The position numbers and the translations under genes were made by a program. 64,000 nucleotides of DNA from Halomonas jincaotanensis. Its GTDB lineage: Bacteria > Pseudomonadota > Gammaproteobacteria > Pseudomonadales > Halomonadaceae. The DNA is taken from the NCBI RefSeq assembly GCF_018448785.1, contig NZ_JAHCLU010000012.1, positions 62,001-126,000 of the forward strand, in the 5' to 3' direction. Under the pieces are notes generated by a model that was not told where the DNA came from, ran no database searches, and was given only the letters and a program-made list of their open reading frames with translations. Within the stretch, counting starts at the first letter, position 1; each line of letters begins with the position of its first letter. Shown piece by piece: positions 46,360 to 63,405 of this stretch.

Positions 46360-46494
46360 TCGCTGGTGGGTCGCATCAAGAGGTAGGCGTTGGGCATGGG
46401 TGAGGCTCGTCTTCGTTTGGCGTCAGGATATCGCTATCGAGGTCCAGGAGCGACGACCTGCAATCCAGCATATGCATCCCGGCTCACGCATTCA

Positions 46495-46573
46495 ACTTTA
46501 GTCGCGATCATCGCGAAGTTACTTGCGGGGCCATAGCCTTATCATTATCTTTCGAGTTGTATGATGTATGACA
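46495..46573 (+). promoter_or_regulatory. Promoter/operator module A of operon kdgD1-tctCBA-garD-gudD
   Basis: The module has an upstream element ACTTTAGTC (from 46495) running into the palindrome TCGCGATCATCGCGA (46502-46516), -35 TTGCGG (46523-46528), a 17-bp spacer, -10 TATCTT (46546-46551) and, 5 bp later, TTGTATGATGTATGACA (46557-46573). The last site contains a TGTATGA direct repeat and covers the likely start of transcription, as a repressor operator would. Modules B and C repeat the geometry exactly. The rest of the 320-bp gap (46360-46679) holds the AEC promoter region and the kdgD1 leader. Confidence 0.8.
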
Positions 46574-46679
46574 GCAAGTCGCGCTCGGTTGTTGTCCATC
46601 TCCGAGACAGGGCGATACAGCGTAATCCCTATGCTGTCGCTAAAGCAGGCCAAATTGACGCGCAAAAGAGGATGACCGG

Positions 46680-47597
46680 GTGAAATTTTCAGTAGACGAG
46701 GTGACACGCGCCCTGGGGGATGGATTGCTCTCCTTTCCCATCACCGACTTCGACGAACAGGGCAACTTCGATCCCGACAGCTACCGCCAGCGCCTGTCGT
46801 GGTTTATCAGCCATGACATTTCGGCCGTCTTTGTCGCCGGCGGGACGGGCGAGTTCTTCAACCTGACGCTCGAGGAATACCGTGAGATCGTCACCCTGGC
46901 GGTCGAAGTGGTGGACGGCAAGTTGCCGGTCATTGCCAGTGCCGGCTTGAGCGTCGGCAGCGGCAAGGCCTTCGCCAAGGCCGCCGAAGAGGCGGGCGCC
47001 GACGGGATCCTGCTGATGCCGCCCTACCTGACGGAGTGCCCTCAGGATGGCCTGGTCGAGTATGCCCGGCAGATCTGCGATGCCACCTCGATCAATGTCG
47101 TTTACTACAATCGTGGCAACGGCATTTTGACTGCCGCCTCAGTCCAGGCACTGGCCGACAGCTGCGCCAATCTCATCGCGCTCAAGGACGGCAAGGGTGA
47201 CATCCAGGCGCTGAACAAGATCGTCAAGACGGTCGGGGATCGTCTGGTCTATATCGGGGGCGTCCCCACCGCCGAAATCTTCGCCGAGGCGTATCTCTCC
47301 ATCGGCGTCAATACGTACTCATCGGCCGTGTTCAACTTCGTGCCGGACATGGCCGTGACGTTCTACAAGGAACTGCGCAAGGGCAACAGTGAAGCCGTCA
47401 AGCAGATCACCAACGACTTCTTCATTCCCTTCGTGGATCTCAGGGATCGGAAGGCCGGCTATGCGGTCAGCCTGATCAAGTCCGGGGCCGAGATCATCGG
47501 TCGCCCGGCGGGCAGTGTTCGTGCACCGCTGAGCATGCCGACTTCCGAGGAGCGCCAGCAGCTCGAAAAGCTGATTGGTATCGCCAAGCAACGTTAA
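46680..47597 (+). CDS. kdgD: 5-dehydro-4-deoxyglucarate dehydratase, copy 1
   Basis: KdgD dehydrates and decarboxylates 5-dehydro-4-deoxyglucarate to 2-oxoglutarate semialdehyde, the meeting point of galactarate, glucarate and hexuronate oxidation. The 305-residue protein is in the DapA aldolase family, with GGTGEFF (54-60), Tyr143 in VVYYNRGN and the Schiff-base Lys169 in IALKDGKGD. The start is a GTG after AAGAGGA. A 97% identical paralogue lies at 54048. It leads the operon with a TTT transporter, garD and gudD. Confidence 0.95.
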   Translation: MKFSVDEVTRALGDGLLSFPITDFDEQGNFDPDSYRQRLSWFISHDISAVFVAGGTGEFFNLTLEEYREIVTLAVEVVDGKLPVIASAGLSVGSGKAFAKAAEEAGADGILLMPPYLTECPQDGLVEYARQICDATSINVVYYNRGNGILTAASVQALADSCANLIALKDGKGDIQALNKIVKTVGDRLVYIGGVPTAEIFAEAYLSIGVNTYSSAVFNFVPDMAVTFYKELRKGNSEAVKQITNDFFIPFVDLRDRKAGYAVSLIKSGAEIIGRPAGSVRAPLSMPTSEERQQLEKLIGIAKQR

Positions 47598-47625
47598 AAC
47601 GACAACGCGTTAATGAGGTGAAAGA

Positions 47626-48681
47626 ATGACTGTATCCAAGAAGACCCTGGCAGGACTGAGCTCCGCCGTCGTCATGGCATCCATGACCTTCGGCGCCGGC
47701 GTCGCCATGGCTCAGGATGGCCCGCTGCGTGGCAACATCCGGGTCGTCATCGGCTCCACGTCGACCGGGGGTGACACCTACCAGAACTCCACCATCGTGG
47801 TGGACAAGCTAGCTGAGCAGCTCGATCTCAACATGAAGGTCGATGCCGTCGGCGCAAGTTCGGCGTTCCGCACCCTGGACCGGGACTCTCGCGGCAATAC
47901 CCTGATGATCTTCCACGATCAGTCCTACCTGGGCTACCTGTATGGCGTGGAGGGCTACGACAATATCTTCGAGAAGTATACCGTCGGGCCGACCGTTGCC
48001 ATTAATCCGGGCAATGCCTACCTGGTCCCCAAGAACTCTCCGTACGAGACGCTGAATGACATCATTGAGGCCGTGGGGAACGGGGAAGAGGTGCGCGTCG
48101 CCATCCAGCCGGGTGGTGTCTCCGAGATCGGCTTCAGTGCCCTGAAGAACGCCATCTCCATCGAGCACCCGGGGCAGGAAGACAACCTGGTCGCCGTGAA
48201 CACTGGCTCCCAGTCGGACAAGAACCAGCAGCTCTTCGATGGCCAGGCGGACCTGATCAACGGCACCGTGCAGGCCAACGAGCAGTACACTCGCCTGCCG
48301 GAGGACGATCAGAAGGCCATGCGCTTTGTGTGGCTGACGGCGCGTCAGGATACCATCGAACAGGCACCGGAAGAGGGCCTGGGCCAGACCACCCGCGAAC
48401 AGCTCCTGGAGTACGTGGAGCCCAACGTACACGTCACCATGGGAGACGACGAGACGTTCACCTTCGACAAGGAATTCTTCTTCCTTTACAACAAGGATAT
48501 GGACCCGGCCATCGTGGACCAGATCGACGAGGCCCTCACCGAGATCTATGCCGAAGGCGAGATCCAGGAAGTCCAGAAGAACTCCTTCTTCATCCCCAAC
48601 TTCAAGCCTTCCGATGAGGCTTCCGAGTATCTGCAAGAGAAGATGTCTCGCTACGAAGAGATCATCGAAAACATCCAGTAA
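47626..48681 (+). CDS. TTT transporter periplasmic binding protein (TctC/Bug), system 1
   Basis: The 351-residue secreted protein has a signal peptide (about 1-29, AMA) and a TctC/Bug-type fold, with RVVIGSTSTGGDTYQN at the ligand-binding start. It would capture the substrate for the adjacent TctBA. Its place between kdgD and garD/gudD suggests galactarate or glucarate. GAGGTG precedes the ATG. It is only distantly similar to the system 2 binding protein at 62428. Confidence 0.88.
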   Translation: MTVSKKTLAGLSSAVVMASMTFGAGVAMAQDGPLRGNIRVVIGSTSTGGDTYQNSTIVVDKLAEQLDLNMKVDAVGASSAFRTLDRDSRGNTLMIFHDQSYLGYLYGVEGYDNIFEKYTVGPTVAINPGNAYLVPKNSPYETLNDIIEAVGNGEEVRVAIQPGGVSEIGFSALKNAISIEHPGQEDNLVAVNTGSQSDKNQQLFDGQADLINGTVQANEQYTRLPEDDQKAMRFVWLTARQDTIEQAPEEGLGQTTREQLLEYVEPNVHVTMGDDETFTFDKEFFFLYNKDMDPAIVDQIDEALTEIYAEGEIQEVQKNSFFIPNFKPSDEASEYLQEKMSRYEEIIENIQ

Positions 48682-48796
48682 GTGATCCGGCATCGGCGGC
48701 GTCATTGTCGCCGATGTTCCCTCCCTGCCGTATGGCGTGAATCGCTATAGAAACAATGCCGGGCAGGATGCCCTCCTGCTCATTCCCGGAGCCACT

Positions 48797-49240
48797 ATGG
48801 AATCAGGTCTCTCAAGTCTGCTCAGCGTCTCGATAGATTTCGAGACATCCCACCTGTTCTTCCCGAGGATCATCCACTGGACTCTGGCGGGACTTTTCGC
48901 CGTCATCCTGGTCACCAGGGTGCTTCCCTTCTTGGCCGCGGTGACACGAGGAGAGCGCACTCTGCCCATCGTGGGAGAGCGCATGGATGGCCTGCGTTTT
49001 TTCGGCACCTTGGCCCTGATCGTAGCCTATTTCTACCTGATGACGGTGGTGGGCGACATCTTCCCCTACACGGGCTACGGCTTCCTGTTCGTCTCGATGG
49101 CATTCGTTTTCCTGATGTCGCTGATGTACATGCACGAATGGACGAAGAAGAGCGTGACCATCGTAGTGATCAATGCCGTCGTCGCCCCTAGTCTGGCCTG
49201 GTACGTGCTGGCCAAGCTGTTCACTATCACCCTGCCGTGA
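48797..49240 (+). CDS. TTT transporter small membrane subunit (TctB), system 1
   Basis: The 147-residue protein has four hydrophobic segments and is placed between tctC and tctA, as TctB subunits are. The sequence is not strongly like well-known TctB proteins, so the call rests largely on size, topology and position. The frame is open from 48737; the ATG at 48797 follows GGAGCC. It overlaps an upstream GTG frame of tctA. Confidence 0.8.
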   Translation: MESGLSSLLSVSIDFETSHLFFPRIIHWTLAGLFAVILVTRVLPFLAAVTRGERTLPIVGERMDGLRFFGTLALIVAYFYLMTVVGDIFPYTGYGFLFVSMAFVFLMSLMYMHEWTKKSVTIVVINAVVAPSLAWYVLAKLFTITLP

Positions 49241-49257
49241 CCGAAGCGAGCGCCACC

Positions 49258-50820
49258 ATGGAATTCCTGTCACTTCTCGACATCACTTTCTTTCTTCTTG
49301 CCGGATTCGGGGCCCTAGTCGGCATCATTTTCGGCGCCATTCCCGGCATGACCGCCACCATGGCGGTGGCGGTCTGCCTGCCGCTGACCTATGCCCTGGG
49401 TCTGCACCACGGCCTGGCACTGCTGCTCGGCCTCTACGTGGGTGGAATCTCCGGTGGGATGGTGCCGGCGGTACTGCTGAATATTCCCGGTACGCCGTCC
49501 TCGATTACCACCACTTTCGATGGCTACCCTATGGCCCGCAAGGGAGAAGGGGAGAAGGCGCTGAAAGTGTGCGTCATCGCGTCGGTGGTCGGCGGGCTTG
49601 TCAGCGCCGCTGTGCTCTTCCTGTTCGCTCCCATGCTGGCCGACTTCTCGATCAAGTTCTCCTACGTGGAGAAGTTCCTGATCATCCTGCTGGCATTGAG
49701 TGTCATTGCCTCACTGTCGAGCAGCATGTTGATCGGCATCTTTAGCGGGGTCATCGGCATCTGGCTGAGCCTGATCGGCGACTACAGCATCTCCGATGGC
49801 GGTAACGGCAAGACCCGGTTGATGTTCGACTTCATGGAGCCCTATCTTTTCGAAGGGTTCTCGCTGCTACCGGTGCTGATCGGCATCTTCGGTATCTCCA
49901 CCATCCTGCTCGAAGCCGAGAAAGGAGTGAAGAGCGACACGGCCAACGAGCGTATCAAGATCGGCAAGGGGAGCCACTTCTCGCTTTCGATCTTCAAGGG
50001 GCGCATGACCAACCTGATGCGTTCGTCCTTCATCGGTACCTTCGTTGGCATGCTGCCTGGGGTTGGCGGCAGTGCCGCTTCAGTGCTGGCCTATACCCAG
50101 GAGAAGAACCTGGCGCGGGACTCGAGTGAGATGGGCAAGGGGGCGCCTCAGGGTCTGATCGCCTCGGAGTCGGCCAACAATGCGCTGACCGGTGGCGCCC
50201 TGATTCCACTGCTCTCCCTCGGCATTCCCGGTGACTCCACCACTGCGGTGCTGATCGGTGCCTTTACCCTCCAGGGCATCCAGGTGGGGCCGCTGTTCAT
50301 CCCGGAAAATCCCGAGACCTGGTACGTCATGATGACGGCGCTGGTATTCGCCAACATCGTGATGTTCTTTCTGATGTTCTATGCCATCAAGCACATTGCC
50401 AAGGTGGTGATGGTGCCCAAGCATATCCTCTACCCGATCATCGTGATGATGTGCGTGGTGGGAGCCTATGCCATCAATTACGGCATCATGTTCGACGTCT
50501 GGACCCTGTTGATCTTCGGCATCCTGGGCTATCTGGTCCAGAAGGTCGGCCTGGAGGTCGCCCCGCTGATCATCGGCTTCATCCTGGGAAGTCAGGCAGA
50601 GATCTACTTCGTCAAGAGCCTCGAGTCATTCGGAACTTTTTCCATCTTCTTCACCAAGAGCCCCATCGCGGTGGTGCTGTGGCTGCTGATCCTGGCCTCG
50701 GTGATCTTCTCGATTGTCATGGGGTTCAAATCTCGCGCCAGGGAGAAGATGGAGCTGACCCAGATCTCTGGCAGCACGCAAACTGATTCTGGAAAACGTC
50801 ATGACACAAATAGCCGCTAA
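49258..50820 (+). CDS. TTT transporter large membrane subunit (TctA), system 1
   Basis: This protein (520 residues from the ATG) has about 11-12 membrane segments and the TctA signatures [21 protein letters not shown] and [19 protein letters not shown]. It forms the sodium- or proton-driven permease with TctB. A GTG at 49237 that overlaps the tctB stop is an alternative start. The 3' end overlaps garD by 20 bp, so transporter and enzyme are translationally linked. Confidence 0.93.
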
Positions 50821-52369
50821 TGCCCGGGTGATTCGGGTGCACCCGAACGATAATGTCGCCATCGTGGTCGAGCGCGGTGGCCTTACCGAAGGCACTGCCA
50901 TCGAGGGCGGCGTCACCACTACGATGGCCATTCCCCAGGGCCATAAGGTAGCGCTGGTAGCGCTAGCCGAGGGCGATCGGATAATTCGCTACGGCGAGGT
51001 CATCGGCACGGCGGTGTCGGCCATCTGCCGTGGCGGTCACGTCAACGAGACCAACGTGCGCCTGCCCACCGCCCCGGCGCTCGGTGAATTGCCCCTGGCC
51101 ACCCGCGAGCCACCCGCAGTAGAAGCACTTGAGGGGTATACCTTCGAGGGTTTTCGCAACCCGGATGGCAGTGTCGGCACCAAGAACGTGCTCGGTATCA
51201 CGACCAGCGTGCAGTGCGTGGCCGGTACCGTCGATTACGTGGTGCAGCGGATCAAGCATGAGATGCTGCCGCGCTTCCCAAACGTCGACGACGTGGTAGG
51301 CCTCAATCATTCCTATGGCTGCGGCGTGGCGATCAATGCGCCGGCCGCCGTGGTACCGATCCGTACCCTCAGGAACATCGCCCTTAATCCCAACTTCGGT
51401 AACGAGGTGATGGTGATCGGGCTAGGTTGCGAGAAATTGCAGCCCTCCACCCTGATCGATGACAAGCCGGTCAAGATCTACGAGAACACCGAAGCGGCGA
51501 ATCCGGACGCCAACGTGTTGAGCCTTCAGGATGAATCCTTCCACGGCTTCGGCGAAATGGTCGAGGGCATTCTGGCCATGGCCGAGCGTCACCTGGAGCG
51601 TCTCGATCGGCGCCGTCGCGAGACCTGTCCGGTGTCCGATCTGGCGGTCGGGATGCAATGCGGTGGCAGCGACGCCTTCTCCGGCGTGACCGCCAACCCT
51701 GCCGTGGGCTTCGCCACCGACTTGATCGTGCGAGCCGGGGGCAGCGTGATGTTCTCCGAGGTCACCGAGGTGCGTGATGCCATTCACCTGTTGACGCCGA
51801 GGGCGGTCGACCGCGAGGTGGGCCAGGCGCTGGTCGATCAGATGGCCTGGTACGACGACTACCTGGCCCAGGGCCAGGCGGACCGCAGCGCCAACCCCTC
51901 GCCCGGCAACAAGAAGGGCGGCCTCAGCAACGTGGTCGAGAAGGCGCTGGGCTCGGTGATCAAGTCGGGTAACTCACCCATCGTTGACGTCATCGGTCCC
52001 GGTGAGCGACTGCGTCGGCGAGGCCTGACTTTCGCCGCTACCCCGGCCAGCGACTTCATCTGCGGCACCCTGCAACTCGCCGCCGGCATGAACCTGCAGG
52101 TCTTCACCACCGGTCGCGGTACGCCCTACAACCTGTCCATGGCGCCGGTCATCAAGGTCTCCAGCAATTCGACGCTGGGACGGCGCTGGTTCGACCTGAT
52201 CGATCTCGATGCGGGACGCATTGCCACCGGCGAAGCCAGTATCGAGGACGTCGGCTGGGAGCTCTTTCACCTGATCCTGGAGGTCGCCAGCGGCCGGCAG
52301 CGCGTCGCCGCCGAGCGTCTCGGTCTCTACAACGATCTGGTGCTGTTCAACCCGGCGCCGGTCACCTGA
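50801..52369 (+). CDS. garD: Galactarate dehydratase
   Basis: GarD dehydrates galactarate (mucate) to 5-dehydro-4-deoxyglucarate. The 522-residue protein belongs to the UxaA/GarD family, with an N-terminal SAF-like domain (about 1-100) and the large catalytic domain containing [31 protein letters not shown] and [11 protein letters not shown]; the cysteines are likely iron ligands. The length equals that of E. coli GarD. It feeds the product directly to KdgD encoded in the same operon. Confidence 0.93.
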
Positions 52370-52406
52370 TGCTCGACATCACAACATTTTTTGCGAGGCA
52401 AGACCC

Positions 52407-53732
52407 ATGTTTCCCAAGATCACCAAGATGAATATCGTGCCCGTCGCGGGCTACGACGGCTTTCTGCTGAACCTCAGCGGCGGCCATGCGCCCTGGTTTG
52501 TTCGATGTGTCGTGGTATTGGAGGATAGCGCTGGCAACAAGGGCGTAGGCGAGATCCCGTCCAGTGACGGTATTCTCAAGGGTCTCGAGCAGTGCCGTTC
52601 GCTGATCGAGGGCGCTCAGGTCAACGAGATGAAAAAGGTTCTGAGCCAGGCCCGTCAGGTGCTCTCGCGTAACGGGCCCGAAGAACGGGGGCGCCAGACC
52701 TTCGATCTGCGCGTGGCCGTGCACGTCGTCACCGCCATCGAATCGGCGCTGTTTGACCTCTTCGGCCAGGCGCTCGGGATGCCCGTGGCCGATCTCCTGG
52801 GGCAGTACGGCCGCCAGCGCGATGAGGTCGAAGCGCTTGGCTACCTGTTCCTGCTCGGCGACCCGGACAAGACCGATCTGCCGTATCCGAAGACGACCGA
52901 CCCGGTCGATGCCTGGGACGAGGTACGCTACCGCGAGGCGATGACGCCGGATGCCGTGGCCAACCTGGCCAAGGCCGCCTTTGATCGCTACGGCTTCAAG
53001 GACTTCAAGCTCAAGGGTGGCGTGCTGCCTGGCGAGGAAGAGGCCGACTGCATTCGTGCCTTGCACGAGGCCTTCCCCGAGGCGCGTCTGACGCTGGACC
53101 CCAATGGCGCCTGGAGCCTCGAGGAGGCGGTGCGGGTGTTGGAGCCGATCAAGGGGCTATTGAGCTACGCCGAGGATCCCTGTGGTCAGGAGGGCGGATT
53201 CTCGGGCCGCGAGACCATGGCCGAATTCAAGAAGCGCACCGGCCTTCCTACGGCCACCAACATGATCGCCACCGACTACAAGCAGCTCAAGCTGGCGGTT
53301 CAGCTTAACGCCGTGGACATTCCCCTGGCCGACTGTCACTTCTGGACCATGCAGGGGGCAGTCGCGGTAGGGGAGCTTTGCAACGAGTGGGGCATGACCT
53401 GGGGCTCGCACAGCAACAACCATTTCGACATCTCGCTGGCGATGATGACGCATGTGGCAGCGGCGTGTCCCGGCGAGATCACGGCCATCGATACGCACTG
53501 GATCTGGCAAGACGGGCAACGCATCACCCAGGAACCGCTGACAATCCGCGATGGCAAGTTGACGGTCCCGAAGACGCCTGGTCTGGGGATCACGCTGGAC
53601 GAGGACAAGTTGATGGAGGCGCATCAACTCTACCGTCAGCTGGATGTCGGTCAGCGCGACGACGCCATGGCGATGCAGTTTCTGATACCGGGGTGGTCTT
53701 TCGATCCGAAGCGGCCAGCCCTCGTTCGTTAG
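52407..53732 (+). CDS. gudD: Glucarate dehydratase
   Basis: GudD is an enolase-superfamily enzyme that dehydrates D-glucarate (and L-idarate) to 5-dehydro-4-deoxyglucarate. The 441-residue protein has Lys201/Lys203 in FKLKGG, metal-ligand Asp231 in LDPNGAW and His339 in GSHSNNHFD, the GlucD catalytic pattern. GCGAGGCAAG precedes the ATG. It is the last gene of operon A, so this operon handles both common C6 aldarates. Confidence 0.96.
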
Positions 53733-53778
53733 AGCTTTCAGGCGTATTCAGTGACATGAGCGATCCTATTGTGTAACA

Positions 53779-53815
53779 GCACTGGGGCTTGCCTCCTTCG
53801 GGTTCTCCCCAGTGC
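53779..53815 (+). terminator. Stem-loop after gudD
   Basis: GCACTGGGG and CCCCAGTGC form a 9-bp stem with a 19-nt loop, 46 bp after the gudD stop. There is no T run, so termination strength is uncertain. Confidence 0.5.
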
Positions 53816-53861
53816 GTCACTATCATGCTTGGTCAGTAAGGAAGATAAAGATGAGCATTCA

Positions 53862-53940
53862 ACTTTGGTCACGATTATCGTGAAGTCGCTTGCGGAACCA
53901 CAAGACCAACACTACCTTGAAGGTTGTATGATGTATGACA
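53862..53940 (+). promoter_or_regulatory. Promoter/operator module B of the kdgD2-TRAP-uronate operon
   Basis: The same parts occur with the same spacing as in module A: ACTTTGGTC (from 53862) with perfect palindrome TCACGATTATCGTGA (53869-53883), TTGCGG (53890-53895), 17 bp, TACCTT (53913-53918), 5 bp and TTGTATGATGTATGACA (53924-53940). The A and B palindromes differ at paired positions that keep the symmetry, which points to a dimeric DNA-binding protein. The remainder of the 315-bp gap (53733-54047) is the post-gudD stem-loop and the kdgD2 leader. Confidence 0.8.
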
Positions 53941-54047
53941 AAAAGACGTAGCATTTAGTTATCCATCCATGAGACTCCGCAACAGAAACCAAATCTTCTG
54001 CTGTAGTTAAGAAGAAGCCACATTGACGCGCAAAAGAGGACGACCGG

Positions 54048-54962
54048 GTGAAATTTTCAGTAGACGAGGTGACACGCGCCCTGGGGGATGGATTGCTCTC
54101 CTTTCCCATCACCGACTTCGACGAGCAGGGCAACTTCGATCCCGACAGCTATCGCCAGCGCCTGACGTGGTTTATCAGCCACGACATTTCGGCCGTCTTT
54201 GTCGCCGGCGGGACGGGCGAGTTCTTCAACCTGACCCTCGAGGAGTTCCGTGAGATCGTCACCCTGGCGGTCGAAGTGGTGGACGGCAAGTTGCCGGTGA
54301 TTGCCAGTGCCGGCTTGAGCGTCGGCAGCGGCAAGGCCTTCGCCAAGGCGGCGGAAGAGGCGGGCGCCGACGGGATCCTGCTGATGCCGCCCTACCTGAC
54401 CGAGTGTCCCCAGGATGGCCTGGTCGAGTATGCCCGGCAGATCTGCGATGCCACCTCGCTCAATGTCGTTTACTACAACCGCGGCAACGGCATTTTGACT
54501 GCCGCCTCCGTCCAGGCACTGGCCGACAGCTGCGCCAATTTCATCGCGCTCAAGGACGGCAAGGGTGACATCCAGGCGCTGAACAAGATCGTCAAGACGG
54601 TCGGGGATCGTCTGGTCTATATCGGGGGCGTCCCCACCGCCGAAATCTTCGCCGAGGCGTATCTGTCCATCGGCGTCAATACGTACTCATCGGCCGTGTT
54701 CAACTTCGTTCCGGACATGGCCGTGACGTTCTACAAGGAACTGCGCAAGGGCAACAGTGAAGCCGTCAAGCAGATCACCAACGACTTCTTCATTCCCTTC
54801 GTGGACCTCAGGGATCGGAAGGCCGGCTATGCGGTCAGCCTGATCAAGGCGGGCGCCGAGCTCATCGGTCGCCCGGCGGGAAGTGTCCGGGCGCCGCTGA
54901 GCATGCCGACTTCCGAGGAGCGCCAGCAGCTCGAAAAGCTGATTGGCAGTGTCAAGCAGTAA
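54048..54962 (+). CDS. kdgD: 5-dehydro-4-deoxyglucarate dehydratase, copy 2
   Basis: This 304-residue paralogue of the enzyme at 46680 differs by eight substitutions and one missing C-terminal residue. The catalytic Lys169, Tyr143 and GGTGE are unchanged, so both copies should be active. The start is again a GTG, and the similarity extends at least 26 bp upstream (54022). It heads the operon with the TRAP transporter and uronate-oxidation genes, giving each route its own KdgD. Confidence 0.95.
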   Translation: MKFSVDEVTRALGDGLLSFPITDFDEQGNFDPDSYRQRLTWFISHDISAVFVAGGTGEFFNLTLEEFREIVTLAVEVVDGKLPVIASAGLSVGSGKAFAKAAEEAGADGILLMPPYLTECPQDGLVEYARQICDATSLNVVYYNRGNGILTAASVQALADSCANFIALKDGKGDIQALNKIVKTVGDRLVYIGGVPTAEIFAEAYLSIGVNTYSSAVFNFVPDMAVTFYKELRKGNSEAVKQITNDFFIPFVDLRDRKAGYAVSLIKAGAELIGRPAGSVRAPLSMPTSEERQQLEKLIGSVKQ

Positions 54963-55001
54963 TCAAACTTCGCCAGTTTCATCAAAGAAAGGTTTACTGA
55001 A

Positions 55002-56000
55002 ATGCAAACAAAGACAATCAGAGCAGGTGCACTACTCCCCGCTACCACCATCGTAGCTTCGATGATGCTGTTTGCCGCCCCAGTTCAAGCAGAAGATTGG
55101 AGAGGGTGGAATATTCACCCACCAGGTTATCCAAATACCGTTGCCTTGGAAGCCTTCGCAGAAGCGGTAGGAGAAAAGACGGAGGGCCGAGTCACCGCTC
55201 AGGTCTACAACAATGCGGTACTGGGTGATCAACCCGATGCCATTGAGCAGACACGCAGCGGTGCACTGGATTTCGCCAACTTCAACATGGGACCCATGGG
55301 ACCCATCGTCAACGAAACCAACGTGCTTTCCCTGCCCTTTATCTTCGACAGTGTCGACCACATGCACACCGTCATGGATGGAGAAATCGGCGACCGTTTC
55401 GCCGAGGCATTGGCCGAAAAGAATCTGATCGCCTTGTCATGGTTTGACTCTGGTGCAAGGAGTCTCTACAACACCGAGCGTCCGATTCATACACCCGAGG
55501 ACGTCCAGGGACTCAAGATTCGGGTCATGAATAACGATCTTTACGTAAACATGATCGAGGCATTGGGAGGCAATGCCACGCCGATGGCTTATGGAGAAGT
55601 TTATCAGAGTCTGACAACCGGCGTACTGGATGGAGCCGAGAACAACTATCCATCATTCGAGTCGAGTAACCACTATGAAGCTGTCGGTTACTATTCCCTG
55701 ACTGAGCATCTTATTATTCCCGAGTGCCTATGTATTGCAAAGGCAAGCTGGGAAGCCCTTTCAGATGAAGATCAGACCATCATCGAAGAGGAAGCCGTGA
55801 AAGCTTCTCAAATGCAGCGTGAGCTTTGGGTAAAGAGCTCGCAGGAAAGCCGCCAGAAGGTCCTGGATGCAGGGGTCGAGATCAATGAAGTGGAAGATAA
55901 GGCCGCTTTCCAGGAGTTGATGCAGCCCGTCTATGCGGAGTTCATTGCTGAAAACCCCGAGCTGGAATCGCTGATCGACGATATCCGGACCACCGAGTAA
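55002..56000 (+). CDS. TRAP transporter substrate-binding protein DctP
   Basis: The 332-residue secreted protein has a signal peptide (about 1-27, VQA) and the DctP fold, with GLKIRVMNNDLYVNMIEALG, AYGEVYQSLTTGVLDGAENN and Arg residues expected to bind a carboxylate. The neighbours suggest hexuronate uptake. The coding sequence is visibly richer in A and T than the surrounding genes, which may reflect a separate origin. Confidence 0.93.
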   Translation: MQTKTIRAGALLPATTIVASMMLFAAPVQAEDWRGWNIHPPGYPNTVALEAFAEAVGEKTEGRVTAQVYNNAVLGDQPDAIEQTRSGALDFANFNMGPMGPIVNETNVLSLPFIFDSVDHMHTVMDGEIGDRFAEALAEKNLIALSWFDSGARSLYNTERPIHTPEDVQGLKIRVMNNDLYVNMIEALGGNATPMAYGEVYQSLTTGVLDGAENNYPSFESSNHYEAVGYYSLTEHLIIPECLCIAKASWEALSDEDQTIIEEEAVKASQMQRELWVKSSQESRQKVLDAGVEINEVEDKAAFQELMQPVYAEFIAENPELESLIDDIRTTE

Positions 56001-56063
56001 CATTTTATCAATACCACTCTCCCGGCAAATGACCTCTGCCGGGAGATCACAAGGAATGACCAC

Positions 56064-56600
56064 GTGACTACCTCCCCCGAAACGTCGGAAGAGGGCAGGG
56101 ACTCCCCACCAGAAAGCAGCGTAGATCGACTCCTGGATAGTATTGCCGCTTTCTGTCTCTGGACGGGAGGCATCCTTCTCGTCGCCCTCATCATCATTTT
56201 TGGTTGGCTGGTCTTCGGCCGGTATGTACTAAACGACACGCCGACATGGGTGGAACAGGCAGCCTTGGTAATGATCGTCTATATCACCTGCCTTGGGGCT
56301 GCAGCCGGCGTGCGCTACAACACTCATCTCAATATCGATTTCATACGCGAAGGCCTCCCCGCTCCCATCAATCGCGCAATGCATCACCTTGCTGACCTCT
56401 TCGTATTGATGTTCGGAGGCTTCATGGCCCAACAGGGATGGGGATTGGTGATGACGAATCTGGAGAGGGCCATCCCAATGATCGGTCTGTCTGAAAGCTG
56501 GCGAGCGGCACCCCTTGTGGTCTGCGGTGTGCTCATGGTTCTTTTCTCGGGCGCCAATATTTGCAAGCGAATTTTTGCCCAAGAAATGAAGAGGAACTAA
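56064..56600 (+). CDS. TRAP transporter small membrane subunit DctQ
   Basis: The 178-residue protein has four hydrophobic segments after a charged N terminus, with WVEQAALVMIVYITCLGAA and ARYNTHLNIDF-like residues (VRYNTHLNID) typical of DctQ. The start is a GTG at 56064 after AAGGA; the ATG eight bases earlier opens only a three-codon frame. dctM starts 2 bp after the stop. Confidence 0.92.
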   Translation: MTTSPETSEEGRDSPPESSVDRLLDSIAAFCLWTGGILLVALIIIFGWLVFGRYVLNDTPTWVEQAALVMIVYITCLGAAAGVRYNTHLNIDFIREGLPAPINRAMHHLADLFVLMFGGFMAQQGWGLVMTNLERAIPMIGLSESWRAAPLVVCGVLMVLFSGANICKRIFAQEMKRN

Positions 56601-56602
56601 CT

Positions 56603-57883
56603 ATGGGACTGATCATACTTTTCGGGATCTTCTTTCTGGGATTGATCGTCGGTGCGCCAGTGGCCTTTGCCGTGGGTCTGGCCGCCATCGCCGCCTTTAT
56701 CTATGAAGGCTTGCCTCTGTTCGTCGCCTTTCAGCGTATTCTCTCCGGGATATCCGTTTTTTCATTGTTGGCGATTCCCTTCTTTATTTTCGCAGGCGAG
56801 CTGATGCTGCATGGCGGGATCTCCACCCGCCTGGTGCGACTCGCCTCGGCGATGGTCGGCAGGATCCGCGGCGGTCTGGGCATGGTAAACATCTTTGCCT
56901 CCATGCTGTTCGGGGGCATTTCGGGTTCAGCAGTGGCAGACACGTCGGCACTCGGGTCCATTCTGGTGCCTATCATGAAGGAAAAGGGTTACGACGCAGA
57001 TTACGCCGTCAACGTGACGGTGACATCCTCGGTTGCCGGGGTAGTGATACCGCCCAGCCACAACATGATTCTCTACGCGGTAGCTGCGGGTGGCGGCATC
57101 TCGGTGACCCAGCTTTTCATCGCGGGTATCGTACCTGGCATCCTGATGTGCCTGACCCTGGCCGTGGCGGCCTATGTCGTCGCAGTGAAGCGCGGCTATA
57201 AGGGAGAAGCCTTTCCCGGCTGGCGTGCCCTTGTGATCAGCATGGCGGTTGCCCTGCCAGGGCTCCTCACCGCAGTGATCATCGTCGGTGGGGTCCTCTC
57301 GGGGATCCTGACGGTGACCGAGTCGGGGGCGTTCGGTGCCATCTATGCAGTGGTGGTGACTGGGCTTGTCTATCGTGAGCTGAAATGGGAACCCTTCAAG
57401 GTCGCCGTACTCCAGTCCGTCAAGACGACTTCCCTAGTGATGATTCTCGTGGGCTGTGCCTCGGCATTCTCCTACTTGCTCGCACTCTACAATGTCCCGG
57501 AGATGCTGACATCGGGCCTCATGGCGATTTCCGATCGACCCCTCGTCATCTTCCTGATGCTCAATCTCATTCTGCTGGTGCTGGGAATGATCATGGACAT
57601 GGCGGCGCTGATATTGATCTGCACGCCGATCTTTCTTCCCGTGGCAATGGAGTTCGGCATGGACCCGATCCAGTTCGGGATCATCCTGATGATGAACCTG
57701 GGGCTGGGTCTTTGTACGCCACCCGTGGGGGCCTGTCTCTTCGTAGGCTGCGTGATAGGAAAGATCAAGATCGAGCAGGCGGTGCGCACCATCTGGCCAT
57801 TCTATCTTGCTCTTCTTGTCGCCTTGATGCTCGTAACCTATGTCCCGGCGATCTCCCTGACGCTACCTGGCATGTTCGATTGA
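56603..57883 (+). CDS. TRAP transporter large membrane subunit DctM
   Basis: The 426-residue permease has about 12 membrane segments and the DctM hallmarks FIFAGELMLHGGIS, FGGISGSAVADTSALGS and PPSHNMI. It is the sodium-coupled channel partner of DctPQ. The frame is open from 56561, but the ATG at 56603 after GAGGAA gives the standard length. Confidence 0.94.
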   Translation: MGLIILFGIFFLGLIVGAPVAFAVGLAAIAAFIYEGLPLFVAFQRILSGISVFSLLAIPFFIFAGELMLHGGISTRLVRLASAMVGRIRGGLGMVNIFASMLFGGISGSAVADTSALGSILVPIMKEKGYDADYAVNVTVTSSVAGVVIPPSHNMILYAVAAGGGISVTQLFIAGIVPGILMCLTLAVAAYVVAVKRGYKGEAFPGWRALVISMAVALPGLLTAVIIVGGVLSGILTVTESGAFGAIYAVVVTGLVYRELKWEPFKVAVLQSVKTTSLVMILVGCASAFSYLLALYNVPEMLTSGLMAISDRPLVIFLMLNLILLVLGMIMDMAALILICTPIFLPVAMEFGMDPIQFGIILMMNLGLGLCTPPVGACLFVGCVIGKIKIEQAVRTIWPFYLALLVALMLVTYVPAISLTLPGMFD

Positions 57884-57906
57884 TACTTTTTCATGGATTC
57901 ACGTAA

Positions 57907-59043
57907 ATGAAAGTAGAAGCTGTACATACCCATATCCTCGACCACAGGCTGGATACGACCTTCGAGAGTGCTTCCATGCATTTTGCCCGTCGCCAACACT
58001 GCCTGGTCGAGGTGGTCTGTGATGATGGCACCATCGGTTGGGGCGAGTGCCTGGGGCCGGCGAAGTTAAATGCTGCGGTCGTCGAAGCCTATGCGGCGGC
58101 TTTGATCGGTCAGGATCCATTACAAACAGAAAAAATATGGCTTGAGCTTTACAACCGCCTGCGTGACCAAGGGCAGCGAGGCCTGACCGTTACCGCCTTG
58201 AGTGGCATCGATATTGCGCTCTGGGATATCAAGGGCAAGCATTTCGGGGCGTCCATCTCCATGCTATTGGGCGGGCGCTTCCGTGACAGTGTGCGTGCCT
58301 ATGCCACCGGTTCCTTCCGGCGTGAAGGTGTCGACCGAGTCGAGGACATTTCGCGTGAAGTCGCGGGCTATCGGCAGCAGGGGTTTCATGCCGTAAAGAT
58401 CAAGATCGGCTTCGATGTCGAGGAGGACCTGCGTGTCATCGAGGCGGTGCGCGAATCCATCGGGCCTGACGTGCGCCTGATGATCGACGCCAACCATGGC
58501 TACGATTATTTGGAGGCGGTGGAGGTGGGCAGGCGTGCCGCGCATTTTGGCGTCGACTGGTTCGAGGAACCGGTACTGCCGGAGCATATTTCAGCCTATC
58601 GTGCCGTGCGCGCCGATCAACCGATCCCCGTGGCGGGAGGCGAAACCTGGCACGGCCGTTATGCCATGCTCGAACCCTTGTCGACCCGCGCCGTGGATAT
58701 TCTGCAACCCGACATCTGCGGGGTAGGAGGCTTCACCGAGATTCGTCGAGTGGCCGACATGGCGGCCACGCACGGCGTGCGCCTGGTGCCGCATGTCTGG
58801 GGCACGGCCGTGTGCCTGGCCGCTAGCCTGCAACTCATGGCCGCGATGCTGCCCAATCCACCTCGTCGTAACCCGATCGAGCCCATCCTTGAATTTGATC
58901 GCACGGAGAACCCGTTCCGTCAGGCCGTCGTGCAAACGCCGATCGAGCATGACCAAGGCGTGGTGCGCATCCCGGACGGCCCTGGCCTGGGTATCGAGAT
59001 CAACCGCGACGCGTTGCGCCAATTCGCTTTGAAGGAGACATGA
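57907..59043 (+). CDS. gci: D-galactarolactone cycloisomerase-like enolase-superfamily enzyme
   Basis: This mandelate-racemase-subgroup protein has 378 residues, the length of Agrobacterium Gci. It shows Lys164-x-Lys166 (VKIKIG), metal ligands Asp194, Glu220 and Glu246, and His296 in VPHVWGT. Gci opens D-galactaro-1,4-lactone to 3-deoxy-2-keto-hexarate (5-dehydro-4-deoxyglucarate). With the adjacent lactone isomerase and udh the assignment is good, but a galactarate or talarate dehydratase activity cannot be excluded. It overlaps the next gene by 4 bp. Confidence 0.82.
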   Translation: MKVEAVHTHILDHRLDTTFESASMHFARRQHCLVEVVCDDGTIGWGECLGPAKLNAAVVEAYAAALIGQDPLQTEKIWLELYNRLRDQGQRGLTVTALSGIDIALWDIKGKHFGASISMLLGGRFRDSVRAYATGSFRREGVDRVEDISREVAGYRQQGFHAVKIKIGFDVEEDLRVIEAVRESIGPDVRLMIDANHGYDYLEAVEVGRRAAHFGVDWFEEPVLPEHISAYRAVRADQPIPVAGGETWHGRYAMLEPLSTRAVDILQPDICGVGGFTEIRRVADMAATHGVRLVPHVWGTAVCLAASLQLMAAMLPNPPRRNPIEPILEFDRTENPFRQAVVQTPIEHDQGVVRIPDGPGLGIEINRDALRQFALKET

Positions 59044-59909
59044 GCGTGTCAGAGATTCCTGTCAACACTCGGCCGCTCGATGGCCCGGCACCCAAGCTCA
59101 AGGCGCCGGCCGGGGCCACCGACTGCCATATTCACCTGTACCTGCCCGGCTACGAGGCCCAGCCTGGCGGTCCGAAGATTCCCGAACTGGCAACGGTCGC
59201 GGATTATCGCAAGTTCCAGCGCTGGCTGTCGCTGGAGCGTGTGGTGGTCACCCAACCCAACGCTTATCAGCGTGACAACAGTGCACTGCTCGCGGCGCTC
59301 GATCAGTTGGGCACCGATAACGCGCGTGGCGTTGCCGCGGTGACGCCCGAGACCCCGGCCGGCGACCTGCAGGCGTGGCACGAAAAGGGCGTGCGCGGGG
59401 CACGGATCATGAATCTGCCGGGTGGCGCGGTCACCAACGATGAGATGCTCGCCGTCGAGCAACGAATCCGCCCGCTGGGTTGGCACCTGATGGTGCAGTT
59501 CAACGGCTGCAAGCTGAACGACTATCTTGACGACCTGCGACGTATTGAAGGCGAGTACATCATCGACCATATCGGCAAGTTCATGCCACCGGTGCCGGCG
59601 GACGATGCCCGGGTCGACGAGATCCTGCGGCTACTCGATCGCGGCAATGCCTGGTTCAAGATCTGCGCCGGCTATGAAGCCAGCCAGACTGGCGGTCCCG
59701 ACTACGCGGATATCGGGGCGATCGCCAAACGAGTCATCGACCACGCGCCCGAGCGCATCATCTGGGGTTCCAACTGGCCGCACGTCGGTGTGCCGCGCGA
59801 GCAGTACCCCGACGATACCGAGCAGCTCGACGTGTTACTCCACTGGGCGCCTGAAGCGTTGCACCGCCAGATCCTGGTGGATAATCCGGCGAAACTATAC
59901 GGCTTCTAG
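59040..59909 (+). CDS. gli: D-galactarolactone isomerase-like amidohydrolase
   Basis: The 289-residue TIM-barrel amidohydrolase has His30-x-His32 (DCHIHLY) and a late GSNWPHVG aspartate-type motif region. Agrobacterium GLI, of this family, converts galactaro-1,5-lactone (the Udh product) to the 1,4-lactone used by Gci. The gene order gci-gli-udh next to kdgD supports that role. It could instead be a simple lactonase or 2-pyrone-dicarboxylate lactonase homologue; context makes that less likely. Confidence 0.82.
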   Translation: MSVSEIPVNTRPLDGPAPKLKAPAGATDCHIHLYLPGYEAQPGGPKIPELATVADYRKFQRWLSLERVVVTQPNAYQRDNSALLAALDQLGTDNARGVAAVTPETPAGDLQAWHEKGVRGARIMNLPGGAVTNDEMLAVEQRIRPLGWHLMVQFNGCKLNDYLDDLRRIEGEYIIDHIGKFMPPVPADDARVDEILRLLDRGNAWFKICAGYEASQTGGPDYADIGAIAKRVIDHAPERIIWGSNWPHVGVPREQYPDDTEQLDVLLHWAPEALHRQILVDNPAKLYGF

Positions 59910-59987
59910 TCGTCCTGCGCTGTTTTGTGACTGGCGCACGGTCTTGGCGATGGCCGTGCGTTTCGAACATCAAAAAGGAGTGTTTTC

Positions 59988-60788
59988 ATGTTGAACCGAA
60001 TCCTGGTGACGGGAGCCGCCGGTGGCCTGGGGCAGGCCCTTCGTCCCCATCTGCCGCGACTGGCCCGTCGGATCAGGCTGTCGGACGTGGCTGATCTCGG
60101 TGAGGCGGCCGATCATGAAGAACTGGTTCACGCCGACCTGGCCGATACCGAGGCTGTCAGTGGCCTGGTAGCAGATTGCGATGGAGTCATTCACCTGGGC
60201 GGCATGTCGGTCGAGACGCCATGGGAAAGCATTCTCCAGGCCAATATCATCGGCACCTACAACCTCTATGAGGCGGCTCGACAGCTGGGCAAGCCACGTG
60301 TTGTCTTCGCCAGCTCCAACCACACCATCGGCTTTTATCCGCGTACCACGCGCATCGACACCGAAGTGCCGCATCGCCCCGATTCCCTGTATGGCGTCTC
60401 CAAGTGCTTCGGCGAGGATCTGGCGAGCCTCTATTTCCACAAGTTCGGCATCGAGACGCTGAGCGTGCGGATCGGCTCCTGCTTCCCCAAGCCGGCCGAT
60501 GCTCGCATGATGGCCACCTGGATGAGCGTCGAGGACTTCGTGAGCCTGCTTGAGCGTGCCTTCGTGGCGCCGAAACTGGGCAATACGGTGGTCTATGGCG
60601 CCTCGGACAACCAGGAGACATGGTGGGACAACAGCCGGGTGGCCTTCCTCGGCTGGGTGCCCAAGGACAGCTCGGAGCCCTGGCGCGAGGAGATCGCGCA
60701 GCAATCCGTGCAGCCTCCCGATGATCCCGCCGTCGTCTATCAAGGCGGTAAGTTCGTCACCTTCGGTCATCCGGATGACCGAAGGTGA
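59988..60788 (+). CDS. udh: Uronate dehydrogenase
   Basis: Udh oxidises D-galacturonate or D-glucuronate to the aldarolactone with NAD+. The 266-residue SDR protein has GAAGGLG (9-15) for NAD binding, VFASSNHTIGFYP and catalytic Tyr135-x3-Lys139 (YGVSK). The ATG follows AAGGAG. It supplies the lactone to Gli and Gci, so operon B encodes uptake to KdgD apart from the final dehydrogenase. Confidence 0.93.
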   Translation: MLNRILVTGAAGGLGQALRPHLPRLARRIRLSDVADLGEAADHEELVHADLADTEAVSGLVADCDGVIHLGGMSVETPWESILQANIIGTYNLYEAARQLGKPRVVFASSNHTIGFYPRTTRIDTEVPHRPDSLYGVSKCFGEDLASLYFHKFGIETLSVRIGSCFPKPADARMMATWMSVEDFVSLLERAFVAPKLGNTVVYGASDNQETWWDNSRVAFLGWVPKDSSEPWREEIAQQSVQPPDDPAVVYQGGKFVTFGHPDDRR

Positions 60789-60789
60789 C
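60756..60789. repeat. Perfect 34-bp palindrome spanning the udh stop codon
   Basis: Seventeen bases beginning GTCACCTTCGG are followed directly by their exact complement, ending at 60789. The udh TGA (60786-60788) lies in the right arm. In RNA this would be a 15-bp or longer hairpin with a minimal loop. No T run follows. Confidence 0.9.
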
Positions 60790-60822
60790 ATATAGCGCTT
60801 TGCATGTCGCCCGGAGGCACCC

Positions 60823-61848
60823 ATGGATGATCAAGTAAGACTTTCGCTAGACGAAGCCTGGGCACTAAGCGTCGATATTCTCGAGCGGCATGGTTTCTCG
60901 TCGGCACATGCTGCCGCCATCGCCCGAAGCGTGGTAGCGGCCCAGCGCGACGAGTGTCACTCGCATGGCCTGTATCGACTCCTCGATTGCGTTCGCACCG
61001 TCAGGCATGGCGGAGTTGACCCGTGTGCCGTTCCTGAAGTGATCGACCAGGCGTCGGGTGTGGTGAGTGTGGATGCGCGAAGAGGGTGTTCGCTATTGGC
61101 CTTCGAGACTGGCCGGAAACATCTAATCGACAAGGCCCGTGCCAATGGAGTAGCGGTCCTGGCGGTCAACAACGCCTTTCACTTCTCGGCGTTGTGGCCT
61201 GAGGTTGAATCTCTGGCGGAACAGGGTTTGGTGGCGCTGGCGATGACACCGAGCCATGCCTATGTCGCGCCAGCCGGGGGGCAGTCGCCGCTGTTGGGCA
61301 CCAACCCTATCGCCTTCGCCTGGCCGCGGCCGGATGGCCTACCATTCGCCTTTGATTTCGCCACGAGTATGGTGGCGCGCGGCGAGGTCGAACTCCACCG
61401 TCGGGCAGGGAAGAGCCTTCCGGAAGGCTGGGCGCTGGATGGAGAGGGGCAACCGGCGACAGACCCCACAACCGCTCTGGCGGGCGCGCTGCTGCCTTTC
61501 GGTGGCCACAAGGGGTCGGCCCTGTCGATCATGATCGAACTACTTGCCGGGCCGCTGATCGGTGATCGCTTGGGCCACCAGACCCGACCGGCGGACGGGA
61601 GCGGGAAGGGAGCGCCGCAGCATGGTGAATTCATCCTGGCCATGGATCCAGGTGCCTTTCTCGGTGCGGACGCCGAGACGCACCTGCGCCAGGCCGAGGC
61701 TTTATTCGAAGGGGTCATCGCACAGGGTGCCCGCCTGCCGTCGCAGCGTCGCCATGCCGCCAGGAAGCGTAGCCAGGCCGAGGGCATGACGATTCCCTCC
61801 GAGCTGTATGAAGAATTGGTGCATCTCAGGAATAGCGACGGGACCTAG
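60823..61848 (+). CDS. Ldh family (malate/L-lactate/ureidoglycolate-type) NAD(P)-dependent oxidoreductase
   Basis: The 341-residue protein belongs to the LDH2/MDH2 fold, with SHGLYRL, AVNNAFHFSALWPEVE, PLLGTNPIAFA and LPFGGHKGSALSIMIELLAG. Members reduce or oxidise 2-keto/2-hydroxy acids, including 2,3-diketogulonate and piperideine-2-carboxylate. The length and motifs are complete. GGAGGC precedes the ATG. It is the last gene of operon B, but no known step of the uronate pathway needs it; the substrate is not assigned. Confidence 0.85.
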   Translation: MDDQVRLSLDEAWALSVDILERHGFSSAHAAAIARSVVAAQRDECHSHGLYRLLDCVRTVRHGGVDPCAVPEVIDQASGVVSVDARRGCSLLAFETGRKHLIDKARANGVAVLAVNNAFHFSALWPEVESLAEQGLVALAMTPSHAYVAPAGGQSPLLGTNPIAFAWPRPDGLPFAFDFATSMVARGEVELHRRAGKSLPEGWALDGEGQPATDPTTALAGALLPFGGHKGSALSIMIELLAGPLIGDRLGHQTRPADGSGKGAPQHGEFILAMDPGAFLGADAETHLRQAEALFEGVIAQGARLPSQRRHAARKRSQAEGMTIPSELYEELVHLRNSDGT

Positions 61849-61986
61849 GCGCTTCTCGTGATGATCGGTCAAATCCGACTGGCTTCCAGCCAGTAATATA
61901 GGTGTGTTTCCCAGGATTTCCGGATGGGATATTGTGCCGGTCGACGGCATTATCGAGTGACCCGGGCCCGGGCAGTTAACAAGAAT

Positions 61987-62019
61987 AAGGGAAGCCCTGG
62001 TGTTGAGCTTCCCTTTTTT
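61987..62019 (+). terminator. Rho-independent terminator at the end of operon B
   Basis: AAGGGAAGC, an 11-nt loop, GCTTCCCTT and a T run close the operon about 140 bp after the Ldh-family stop. Confidence 0.85.
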
Positions 62020-62180
62020 ACAGTGAGGCTGGTATTGACTGCGCCCATTTTCTGACTTTGGCCGACTTGATGATTTATACAGTGGACGAGGCGGTGATAA
62101 TTCTTGAAATCGCGCGTCTTATCAACGATAAATAATATTCATTAATCGCCAAAATGGCGGCAAGATCGACCCGGTATTAA

Positions 62181-62259
62181 ACTTTAGTCTCGATTTCGTT
62201 CCTCTTTCTTGCGGCATGGGTCCGTACAGACTAGCTTGTACTTTGTATGATGTATGACA
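62181..62259 (+). promoter_or_regulatory. Promoter/operator module C of the second TTT operon
   Basis: The same spacing is kept: ACTTTAGTC (from 62181), TTGCGG (62209-62214), 17 bp, TAGCTT (62232-62237), 5 bp and TTGTATGATGTATGACA (62243-62259). The upstream palindrome is degenerate here, with CGAT but no good second arm. Before it, 61849-62180 contains the operon B terminator and an A+T-rich stretch without genes; the leader runs on to 62427. Confidence 0.8.
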
Positions 62260-62427
62260 TGTTGTGGTTTGCTACGACACCATCGACATCTACGTACGCT
62301 GACGGTTCGAAAGTCTTTTATCCGATAGCTACAAGTACTGCAAGTTGTCTTCGCCGATTAGTAGCTAGAATAATCTGTGTGCCAAGTCATTTTTAGCTTG
62401 GTGTGTGAAAAAATAGGAGTAGGCATA

Positions 62428-63405
62428 ATGTACAAGAAACCCATTCTGACGCTAGCTGGTGTTATCGCATTATCCACGATGGCCGGGGCAGTGCAGGCCG
62501 ATTATCCTGAGCGCGACATTCGAGTGATTGTCCCTTGGGGTGCGGGTGGTGGTACCGATGGCATCGTGCGCAAACTGACAAGCATTGCCGAAGATAGCCT
62601 CGATGTTTCCATGTATGTGGAAAATATCGAGGGGGGCGTTAGTGCCACCGGTATTGGCCAGGTCATGAGCTCTCGTCCAGATGGCTATACCATTGGCGCG
62701 CTTACCTATGACAGCATCGTAACCGTACCTTGGCAAGGGATGTTGCCGAGCTACAAGATGGACAGGCTGAAACTGATTGCACGAGTGACGAGCGAGCCCG
62801 ACGCTATCGTGGTGGATGCCGATTCCGATTATGAAACGATTCATGATCTGATCGAGGCGGCCAAGGCAGATCCGGGTGAGGTTCGCGTTGCCATCCAGAA
62901 TCTGGGCGGGCGAATCCACCTGGCGATTCTGCAGTTGCAGGAGCTGACCGATACGGAATTCAGGATCGTCTCTTATCCAGGCGGTGCAGCCCCACAGAAG
63001 GAGGCCATCCTGTCCGACGAGGTCGATGTCGCTCTGACCAGTCTGGGCGATTTTTCCAATCTTCTGGAAGATGGCACCGTGCGGGGTCTCGTCGAGTTCT
63101 CGGATACCCAGAACCCCACTTATCCCGAGGTGCCCACCACGGTGGATGAGGGGATCGATCTGCAGATTGGCAGCTTCATCGTCTTCGCGGCACCGGCGGA
63201 TACCCCGGACGTGGCCATCGAGGTGCTGGAAAACGCTTACCAGACGGCGTACGACAGCGATGAGTTTCAGGAGTGGGTGGCCAATGTCGGGGTAACACCC
63301 AACTGGCTGGGGACCGATGAGGTGACTCCCTGGGCCGAGGAAACGGCCGAGTCGCTGTTCGATGAAATGGATGCGCTGGTCGAAGCCGGCATCATGTCCA
63401 AGTAA
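62428..63405 (+). CDS. TTT transporter periplasmic binding protein (TctC/Bug), system 2
   Basis: The 325-residue secreted protein has a signal peptide (about 1-23, VQA) and the Bug pattern YPERDIRVIVPWGAGGGTDG, followed by a domain with GEVRVAIQNLGG. The frame is open from 62377, but the ATG at 62428 follows TAGGAG. The shared operator suggests a sugar acid as ligand, perhaps a different one from system 1. Confidence 0.93.
   Translation: MYKKPILTLAGVIALSTMAGAVQADYPERDIRVIVPWGAGGGTDGIVRKLTSIAEDSLDVSMYVENIEGGVSATGIGQVMSSRPDGYTIGALTYDSIVTVPWQGMLPSYKMDRLKLIARVTSEPDAIVVDADSDYETIHDLIEAAKADPGEVRVAIQNLGGRIHLAILQLQELTDTEFRIVSYPGGAAPQKEAILSDEVDVALTSLGDFSNLLEDGTVRGLVEFSDTQNPTYPEVPTTVDEGIDLQIGSFIVFAAPADTPDVAIEVLENAYQTAYDSDEFQEWVANVGVTPNWLGTDEVTPWAEETAESLFDEMDALVEAGIMSK

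Follow-up and report, generated by a model that had tools for sequence, protein, structure and literature searches.

Three sugar-acid operons of Halomonas jincaotanensis share a promoter module with a predicted GguR operator and a putative CrbR-type activator site

Three operons for sugar-acid uptake and breakdown in Halomonas jincaotanensis begin with the same promoter module, which occurs three times in the window analysed here (the whole 64,000-nucleotide stretch, C4:62001-126000; the assembly totals 4.13 Mb in 60 contigs). In each copy an ACTTTRGTC box is followed, 28 bp from its start, by TTGCGG, then by a 17-bp spacer, TANCTT, 5 bp and the 17-mer TTGTATGATGTATGACA. This 17-mer is in all likelihood the operator of a GntR/FCD repressor encoded by the cluster, and this repressor very probably corresponds to GguR, which earlier work predicted in Halomonas. 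We consider it somewhat probable that two inputs act on the sigma-70 promoter of each module, namely repression by GguR and activation by CrbR/ErdR. The full reading, to which we give a probability of roughly 0.45, is that the CrbS/R system of the Halomonadaceae, a two-component acetate switch, directly activates sugar-acid uptake and breakdown operons through an ACTU-type site phased to the -35 element, while the locally encoded GguR gates the same promoters.

An earlier note on this DNA described three modules with identical 17-mers and identical spacing, and this is exactly what we find at 46495, 53862 and 62181, with a -10 element that reads TATCTT in module 1, TACCTT in module 2 and TAGCTT in module 3. 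The predicted sites are as follows, with scores from a position weight matrix (PWM) of the published ACTU motif, for which the 95% level is 6.28.

46494..46503, + strand: upstream box of module 1, AACTTTAGTC, ACTU-like and distal, centred at about -60 (score 9.4)
46523..46551, + strand: sigma-70-type promoter of module 1, TTGCGG-17-TATCTT
46557..46573, + strand: operator of module 1, TTGTATGATGTATGACA, predicted GguR site, spanning about -2 to +15 if the promoter is correctly predicted
53861..53870, + strand: upstream box of module 2, AACTTTGGTC (score 5.4, under the 95% level)
53890..53918, + strand: promoter of module 2, TTGCGG-17-TACCTT
53924..53940, + strand: operator of module 2, 17 bp
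62180..62189, + strand: upstream box of module 3, AACTTTAGTC (score 7.5)
62209..62237, + strand: promoter of module 3, TTGCGG-17-TAGCTT
62243..62259, + strand: operator of module 3, 17 bp

A sigma-54 reading of these promoters was dropped after inspection by eye.

Within the window the 17-mer is matched three times at up to 3 mismatches, against 0.04 matches expected, and none of 100 shuffles contained three matches. Across the whole genome it occurs at no fourth place at up to 2 mismatches (reversed-pattern control, 1); relaxing the limit to 3 mismatches raised the count to 7 (control, 2) and added a match at the start of a regulator gene. Outside their constant parts modules 1 and 2 are related, with 22 of 41 non-constant positions identical and 69% identity from the box to kdgD, whereas module 3 is independent of both (10/41 and 14/41 positions shared with modules 1 and 2, respectively). 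The claim of the earlier note that the differing intervening bases reveal selection on the constant parts therefore holds well for copy 3 and less well for the related copies 1 and 2. That the modules are alike only through a recent duplication, and are functionless, is hardly credible: the kinship of copies 1 and 2, which extends to their kdgD genes, would fit such an origin, but it is already contradicted by the divergence of copy 3 and by the occurrence of the 17-mer in 15 of 24 sampled genera, where its flanks differ.

Two further features of the related copies were observed. Because kdgD1 (46680-47597) and kdgD2 (54048-54962) share 96.3% DNA identity, as against 69% from box to start and 53% in the 150 bp 5' of the box, their likeness points to a coding part that was duplicated or underwent gene conversion. 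The interval between box and -35 contains the palindromes TCGCGATCATCGCGA in copy 1 (about 46502-46516) and TCACGATTATCGTGA in copy 2 (about 53869-53883), which differ from each other by matched changes in both arms; copy 3 lacks such a palindrome.

The module had also been proposed for comparison with related genomes, and we found the 17-mer (≤1 mismatch) in 113 of 201 genomes of the same family, with a reversed-pattern control of 0 among the genomes listed. A sample of the class contained it in only 2 of 273 further genomes, with one mismatch each, and one extra family member in that sample lacked it. The earlier note placed the regulator outside the window and thought a GntR or LysR/IclR-type protein nearby plausible. 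A profile search of the genome for the FCD domain gave 17 matches, and one of these lies 4.9 kb beyond the window end, with a palindrome at its start:

C4:130903-131697 (L004:6903-7697): GntR/FCD regulator, 264 amino acids (aa)
C4:130906-130923: palindrome CTGTATGACATCATACAG at the regulator start, overlapping the fourth 17-mer-like match (3 mismatches)

Translation probably proceeds from an inner start, giving 245 aa, a choice of start that we infer. The protein carries PF00392 (GntR-type helix-turn-helix, HTH; 72.3 bits) and PF07729 (FCD; 87.4 bits). It shares this domain family with the repressors LldR, NanR, PdhR, ExuR and UxuR, and is judged to be none of them, since its NCBIfam scores against all five fall far below the model cut-offs. 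In E. coli the galactarate and glucarate genes, the same pathway as here, are controlled by CdaR/SdaR, which belongs to another regulator family.

Orthologues of the regulator (E 1e-40) are present in 127 of the 201 family genomes, the closest among sampled relatives being that of G177 (92% identical). Operator and regulator occur together in 112 genomes, the motif alone in 1, the regulator alone in 15 and neither in 73; a stricter orthologue set gave 110, 3, 12 and 76. Pathway genes would pair with the 17-mer too, and what singles out the regulator is that it is the one DNA-binding protein seen to recur near the operators and has a symmetric site of its own. Besides the regulator, 19 families of open reading frames (ORFs) recur around the operators (at least 180 aa, in at least 4 regions, with rarer or shorter genes outside the scan), and none of the 17 representatives scanned against Pfam had a DNA-binding domain, 7 being without any match. 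The other FCD regulator on the same contig was rejected as the partner of the 17-mer, as it is near-universal (197/201) and so distributed unlike the motif.

The sites are described from regions of 60 genomes, out of 112 others that bear the operator; in most of those chosen the operator is close to the regulator, which favours linked cases. The regulator is present in 55 of these 60 regions, most of them selected to contain it, and region L107 stops short of it. Together with the window they hold 104 operator-like sites (≤2 mismatches); after removal of 7 for which the 600 bp downstream contained no recognised cluster gene, 97 remain, and these lie upstream of kdgD (63), tctC-like genes (11), dctP (10), gudD-like genes (7), the regulator (3) and others (3). 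Over these sites the operator core GTATGATGTA varies at 3 cells only and the ends vary more, a conservation due in part to the sites having been picked by likeness to the 17-mer. A symmetric TGTATGA-NN-TCATACA-like site (at least 12 of 14 positions) stands near the start of 11 of 58 regulator ORFs (from the 55 regions plus L004). Those 11 regulators are 75 to 100% identical to that of H. jincaotanensis, yet many other regulator ORFs are equally similar and lack the site. The 17-mer has the outer geometry of this symmetric site, TGTA-N8-KACA.

An alternative is that the 17-mer works not as a DNA site but as an RNA element near the transcript's 5' end. If the predicted promoter is right the 17-mer would span about the first 16 transcribed bases, but in four of the counted promoters the operator lies 6 to 7 bp earlier, overlapping the -10 box, and the regulator gene has a symmetric version of DNA type, so that we regard an RNA element as very improbable. 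The earlier proposal, in which the modules define a sugar-acid regulon and a repressor operator covers the expected transcription start, is well supported at the sequence level by the genes as named, by the GntR-family regulator just beyond the window, by its pairing with the 17-mer and by the lack of any further genomic match at up to 2 mismatches.

The repressor half of the module is best read as a GguR operator, a known kind, because a GguR (GntR family) regulon was predicted in 2017 in Halomonas sp. HL-48 and HL-93 (PMC5507952). As far as the available text of that work goes, both systems have a GntR-family regulator clustered with galactarate/glucarate genes and a tripartite tricarboxylate transporter (TTT), the FCD assignment coming from our own scan. 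The predicted GguR regulon of HL-93 includes an operon encoding Udh, Gli, Gci and a tripartite ATP-independent periplasmic (TRAP) transporter (PMC5507952), as in operon 2 here. In HL-48 the regulator orthologue is 74% identical, the 17-mer lies upstream of kdgD, and the order kdgD-tctCBA-garD-gudD-regulator fits the GguR cluster as described in that text (PMC5507952). Two differences emerge: here three operons share the operator, a second TTT system included, and an upstream activator-like box is seen, whereas the available GguR description gives neither an operator sequence nor an upstream activator (PMC5507952).

This upstream box, RACYTTRGTC, is palindromic and contains G and C. Among 70 sites with a box of at least 8/10 matches in the distal range, TTG lies 29 or 30 bp from the box in 67, and in 64 of these 67 phased sites the -10 element follows at a spacer of 17. 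The distance from box to operator varies from 56 to 70 bp (mostly 62-64), so the constant 79-bp spacing put forward earlier holds within this genome and not among relatives. Because the box-TTG distance is fixed while the box-operator distance varies, box and promoter are one unit and the operator is another. The repressor site does not include ACTTTRGTC, which the earlier note correctly placed in the module and gave no activator-like role: its spacing to the -35 is constant and it is also present, with no operator, at unlinked tctC genes, so that it looks like the site of an activator. A second palindrome, of the GACCATGGTC kind, lies 13/14 bp before TTG in 19 of the 22 sites having one. Alternatively, the box could be a promoter part such as an UP element, with repression at the 17-mer as the sole regulation. 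The nearly invariant spacing to the -35 is what a polymerase contact would produce; the box is, however, a palindrome with G and C instead of an A/T tract, and in some promoters its stronger copy sits 16 bp closer to the -35, which makes this reading improbable.

Seven promoters (L107, L112, L118, L124, L129, L133 and L141) form a different class: the distal box is missing, and a site of the TTAGNCTAAAGTCTAGA or TTAGCCTAATGTCTAYA type stands about 21 bp upstream of the operator. Across 41 genomes of the genus, RACYTTRGTC-N19/20-TTG was matched 95 times, in 37 genomes; many single matches are chance, since the reversed control gave 49 in 27 genomes.

The chances that the activator at the box is CrbR/ErdR are about even. 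By sequence the box is similar to the published ACTU motif of CrbR, which in the acs promoter of P. fluorescens reads TACTACCATCGTCGAAT, is required for CrbR-dependent activation and lies immediately before the -35 box, at -52 to -36 (available text of PMC5715377). In the ACTU table of that paper only 3 of 23 rows pass the authors' q < 0.05 (PMC5715377). Scored with a PWM built on 20 published 17-mers, the best matches at the 97 sites averaged 9.85, compared with 0.34 in dinucleotide shuffles, and 82 sites exceeded the 95% level of the shuffles, 59 the 99% level and 18 the 99.9% level. With a PWM from the four experimentally identified targets alone, 65/97 sites passed the 95% level of random 90-mers and 62/97 that of other ORFs. 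Window copies 1 and 3 score above the 95% level, and the second boxes of relatives sit about where ACTU does in P. fluorescens acs.

Candidate genes for such a system are also present. On another contig of H. jincaotanensis, acs, a LuxR-type regulator gene and a gene for a 1314-aa hybrid kinase stand side by side. The CrbR candidate has Response_reg and GerE domains, and its best NCBIfam match is ErdR (269.7 bits, under the cut-off of 390); the kinase has PAS, HisKA, HATPase and receiver domains, while SSF gave a weak match when the genome was searched (9e-6) and was absent from the protein's own domain list at 1e-5. Kinases of the CrbS type are characterised by SLC5 and STAC domains. The acs leader holds the ACTU-like site TTCTACCAATGTCTAAA (L243:3236-3252; PWM 11.4), the form expected under CrbR control, which a consensus scan at 14/17 did not list. 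ACTU-like TCATACCAATGTCTAAR sites scoring 7.6 to 8.8 occur in the acs leaders of five relatives (L167, L168, L170, L173 and L176). A box match upstream of acs in the same five was rejected as support for CrbR, as it sits in the last codons of the preceding gene in all of them.

The available text on CrbS/R (MxtR/ErdR) of Pseudomonas and others describes a palindromic ACYWWNGTC core before a sigma-70 promoter, as here (PMC5715377, PMC8402216), and H. jincaotanensis too has its crbR-like gene next to acs and a hybrid kinase. The targets described there are acs, actP and a few others rather than sugar-acid operons (PMC5715377, PMC8402216), and the window boxes differ in lying about 16 bp further upstream and in sharing their promoters with a repressor operator. 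For a related system the site on record is a direct repeat (excerpt of PMC9100948).

Several observations weigh against this assignment or temper the reading as a whole. When the 90 bp upstream of 515 other cluster ORFs served as background, 80/97 sites exceeded the 95% level and only 13/97 the 99% level, and copy 2 in the window, at 5.4, falls below 6.28. In the window the distance from the start of the box to TTG is 29 bp, which puts the boxes about 16 bp further upstream than the canonical ACTU position, and none lies immediately before the -35. A CrbR-like gene is found in all 201 family genomes and therefore has no discriminating value. Because the genomes share ancestry, the pairing of operator and regulator is less significant than its Fisher p of 2e-38 suggests, and in at least four fetched genomes (L140, L147, L148 and L149) operators and regulator lie apart. 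Elsewhere in the H. jincaotanensis genome the box with TTG at this spacing occurs only twice (control, 2). Finally, among 29 loci examined, the distal box stands without the operator, ahead of TTGAC-17-TANCTT, before unlinked tctC at L154, L156, L160, L162, L165 and L171, and at L160 the TctC gene (81.8 bits) adjoins genes for an IclR-type HTH protein (46.7 bits) and an OmpR-type response regulator, possibly the real partners of the box.

Such loci favour an alternative that we consider unlikely, in which the 17-mer is a GguR-type operator and the box is bound by another regulator, for example a TTT-linked protein (TctD-like of the OmpR family, or IclR-type) or a CrbR paralogue, the last in keeping with a second CrbR-like match in many family genomes. 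However, the box also precedes the TRAP operon and gudD-like genes and resembles ACTU, and the boxes at unlinked tctC themselves score 6.1 to 10.8 with the ACTU PWM. It is a single palindrome and not a direct repeat; LuxR-type dimers prefer a single palindrome, and direct repeats are usual for OmpR-type proteins. Some operator-bearing genomes, G020, G074 and G111 among them, have one CrbR match only. As a separate observation, the unlinked tctC genes (the six loci above, assigned by protein, and L161, assigned by its leader) have a conserved leader, about GGAACGTTGTTCTGCCTTACAGAATTGTAAG, behind box and promoter.

Under control by GguR and CrbR together, GguR bound to the 17-mer over the expected start point would block the galactarate, glucarate and hexuronate uptake and breakdown operons in the absence of inducer, and GguR would probably control its own gene through the symmetric site there. 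The upstream box, rigidly phased to a poor -35, would be the activator site, with CrbR/ErdR, the LuxR-type response regulator of CrbS/R, as the likeliest activator. The promoters would fire when the CrbR-type activator is on and a sugar acid has released GguR. On this view each module is a promoter of CrbR type, or one activated in a similar way, whose start point has acquired a GguR operator. Binding by either protein, repression, activation and the inducer are what we infer from the arrangement of sites and genes.

The operons behind the three modules are as follows.

46680..53732, + strand: operon 1, with kdgD1, a TctC-position protein, TctB, TctA, garD and gudD
54048..61848, + strand: operon 2, with kdgD2, TRAP dctPQM, an enolase-family protein, an amidohydrolase, udh and an Ldh_2-family dehydrogenase
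62377..64000, + strand: operon 3, first part, with TctC (62377) and TctB (63458)

In operon 1 the TctC-position protein at 47626 had no Pfam or NCBIfam match, and gudD scored 692.6 bits, below the model cut-off of 828.7. In operon 2 the enolase-family protein is very close to PDB 4ggb/4hpn, the amidohydrolase is close to 4mup, and udh (uronate dehydrogenase) is like 3ay3 and 3rft; 4ggb and 4mup are galactarolactone cycloisomerase and isomerase, respectively. Operon 3 continues past the window end with TctA and then a thiamine pyrophosphate (TPP) enzyme. In the relative L092 the udh operon is followed by the TPP and regulator genes, with no third transporter operon in between.

In open-licence literature the exact 17-mer had no match, and among the matches listed for the string ACTTTGGTC none concerned such a promoter by title or abstract start. 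Nothing there linked CrbR to Halomonas or to glucarate, in searches in which the names ErdR and MxtR were not combined with sugar acids, and a limited search for the ACTU motif by name gave, by title, only work on acetate in Pseudomonas. The proposed link of sugar-acid promoters to the CrbR/ACTU system thus appears to be new.

With these results, what had been a predicted repressor regulon becomes a switch defined by its sequence and present in 113 of the 201 family genomes sampled, with a named regulator candidate that the earlier note, confined to the window, could not see. Halomonas species serve as production hosts, and a defined promoter with activator and repressor sites may be of practical use. 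The proposal that an acetate-sensing two-component system reaches past the acetate genes to sugar-acid catabolism is testable; if true, sugar-acid use in these bacteria would be subordinated to a global carbon signal.

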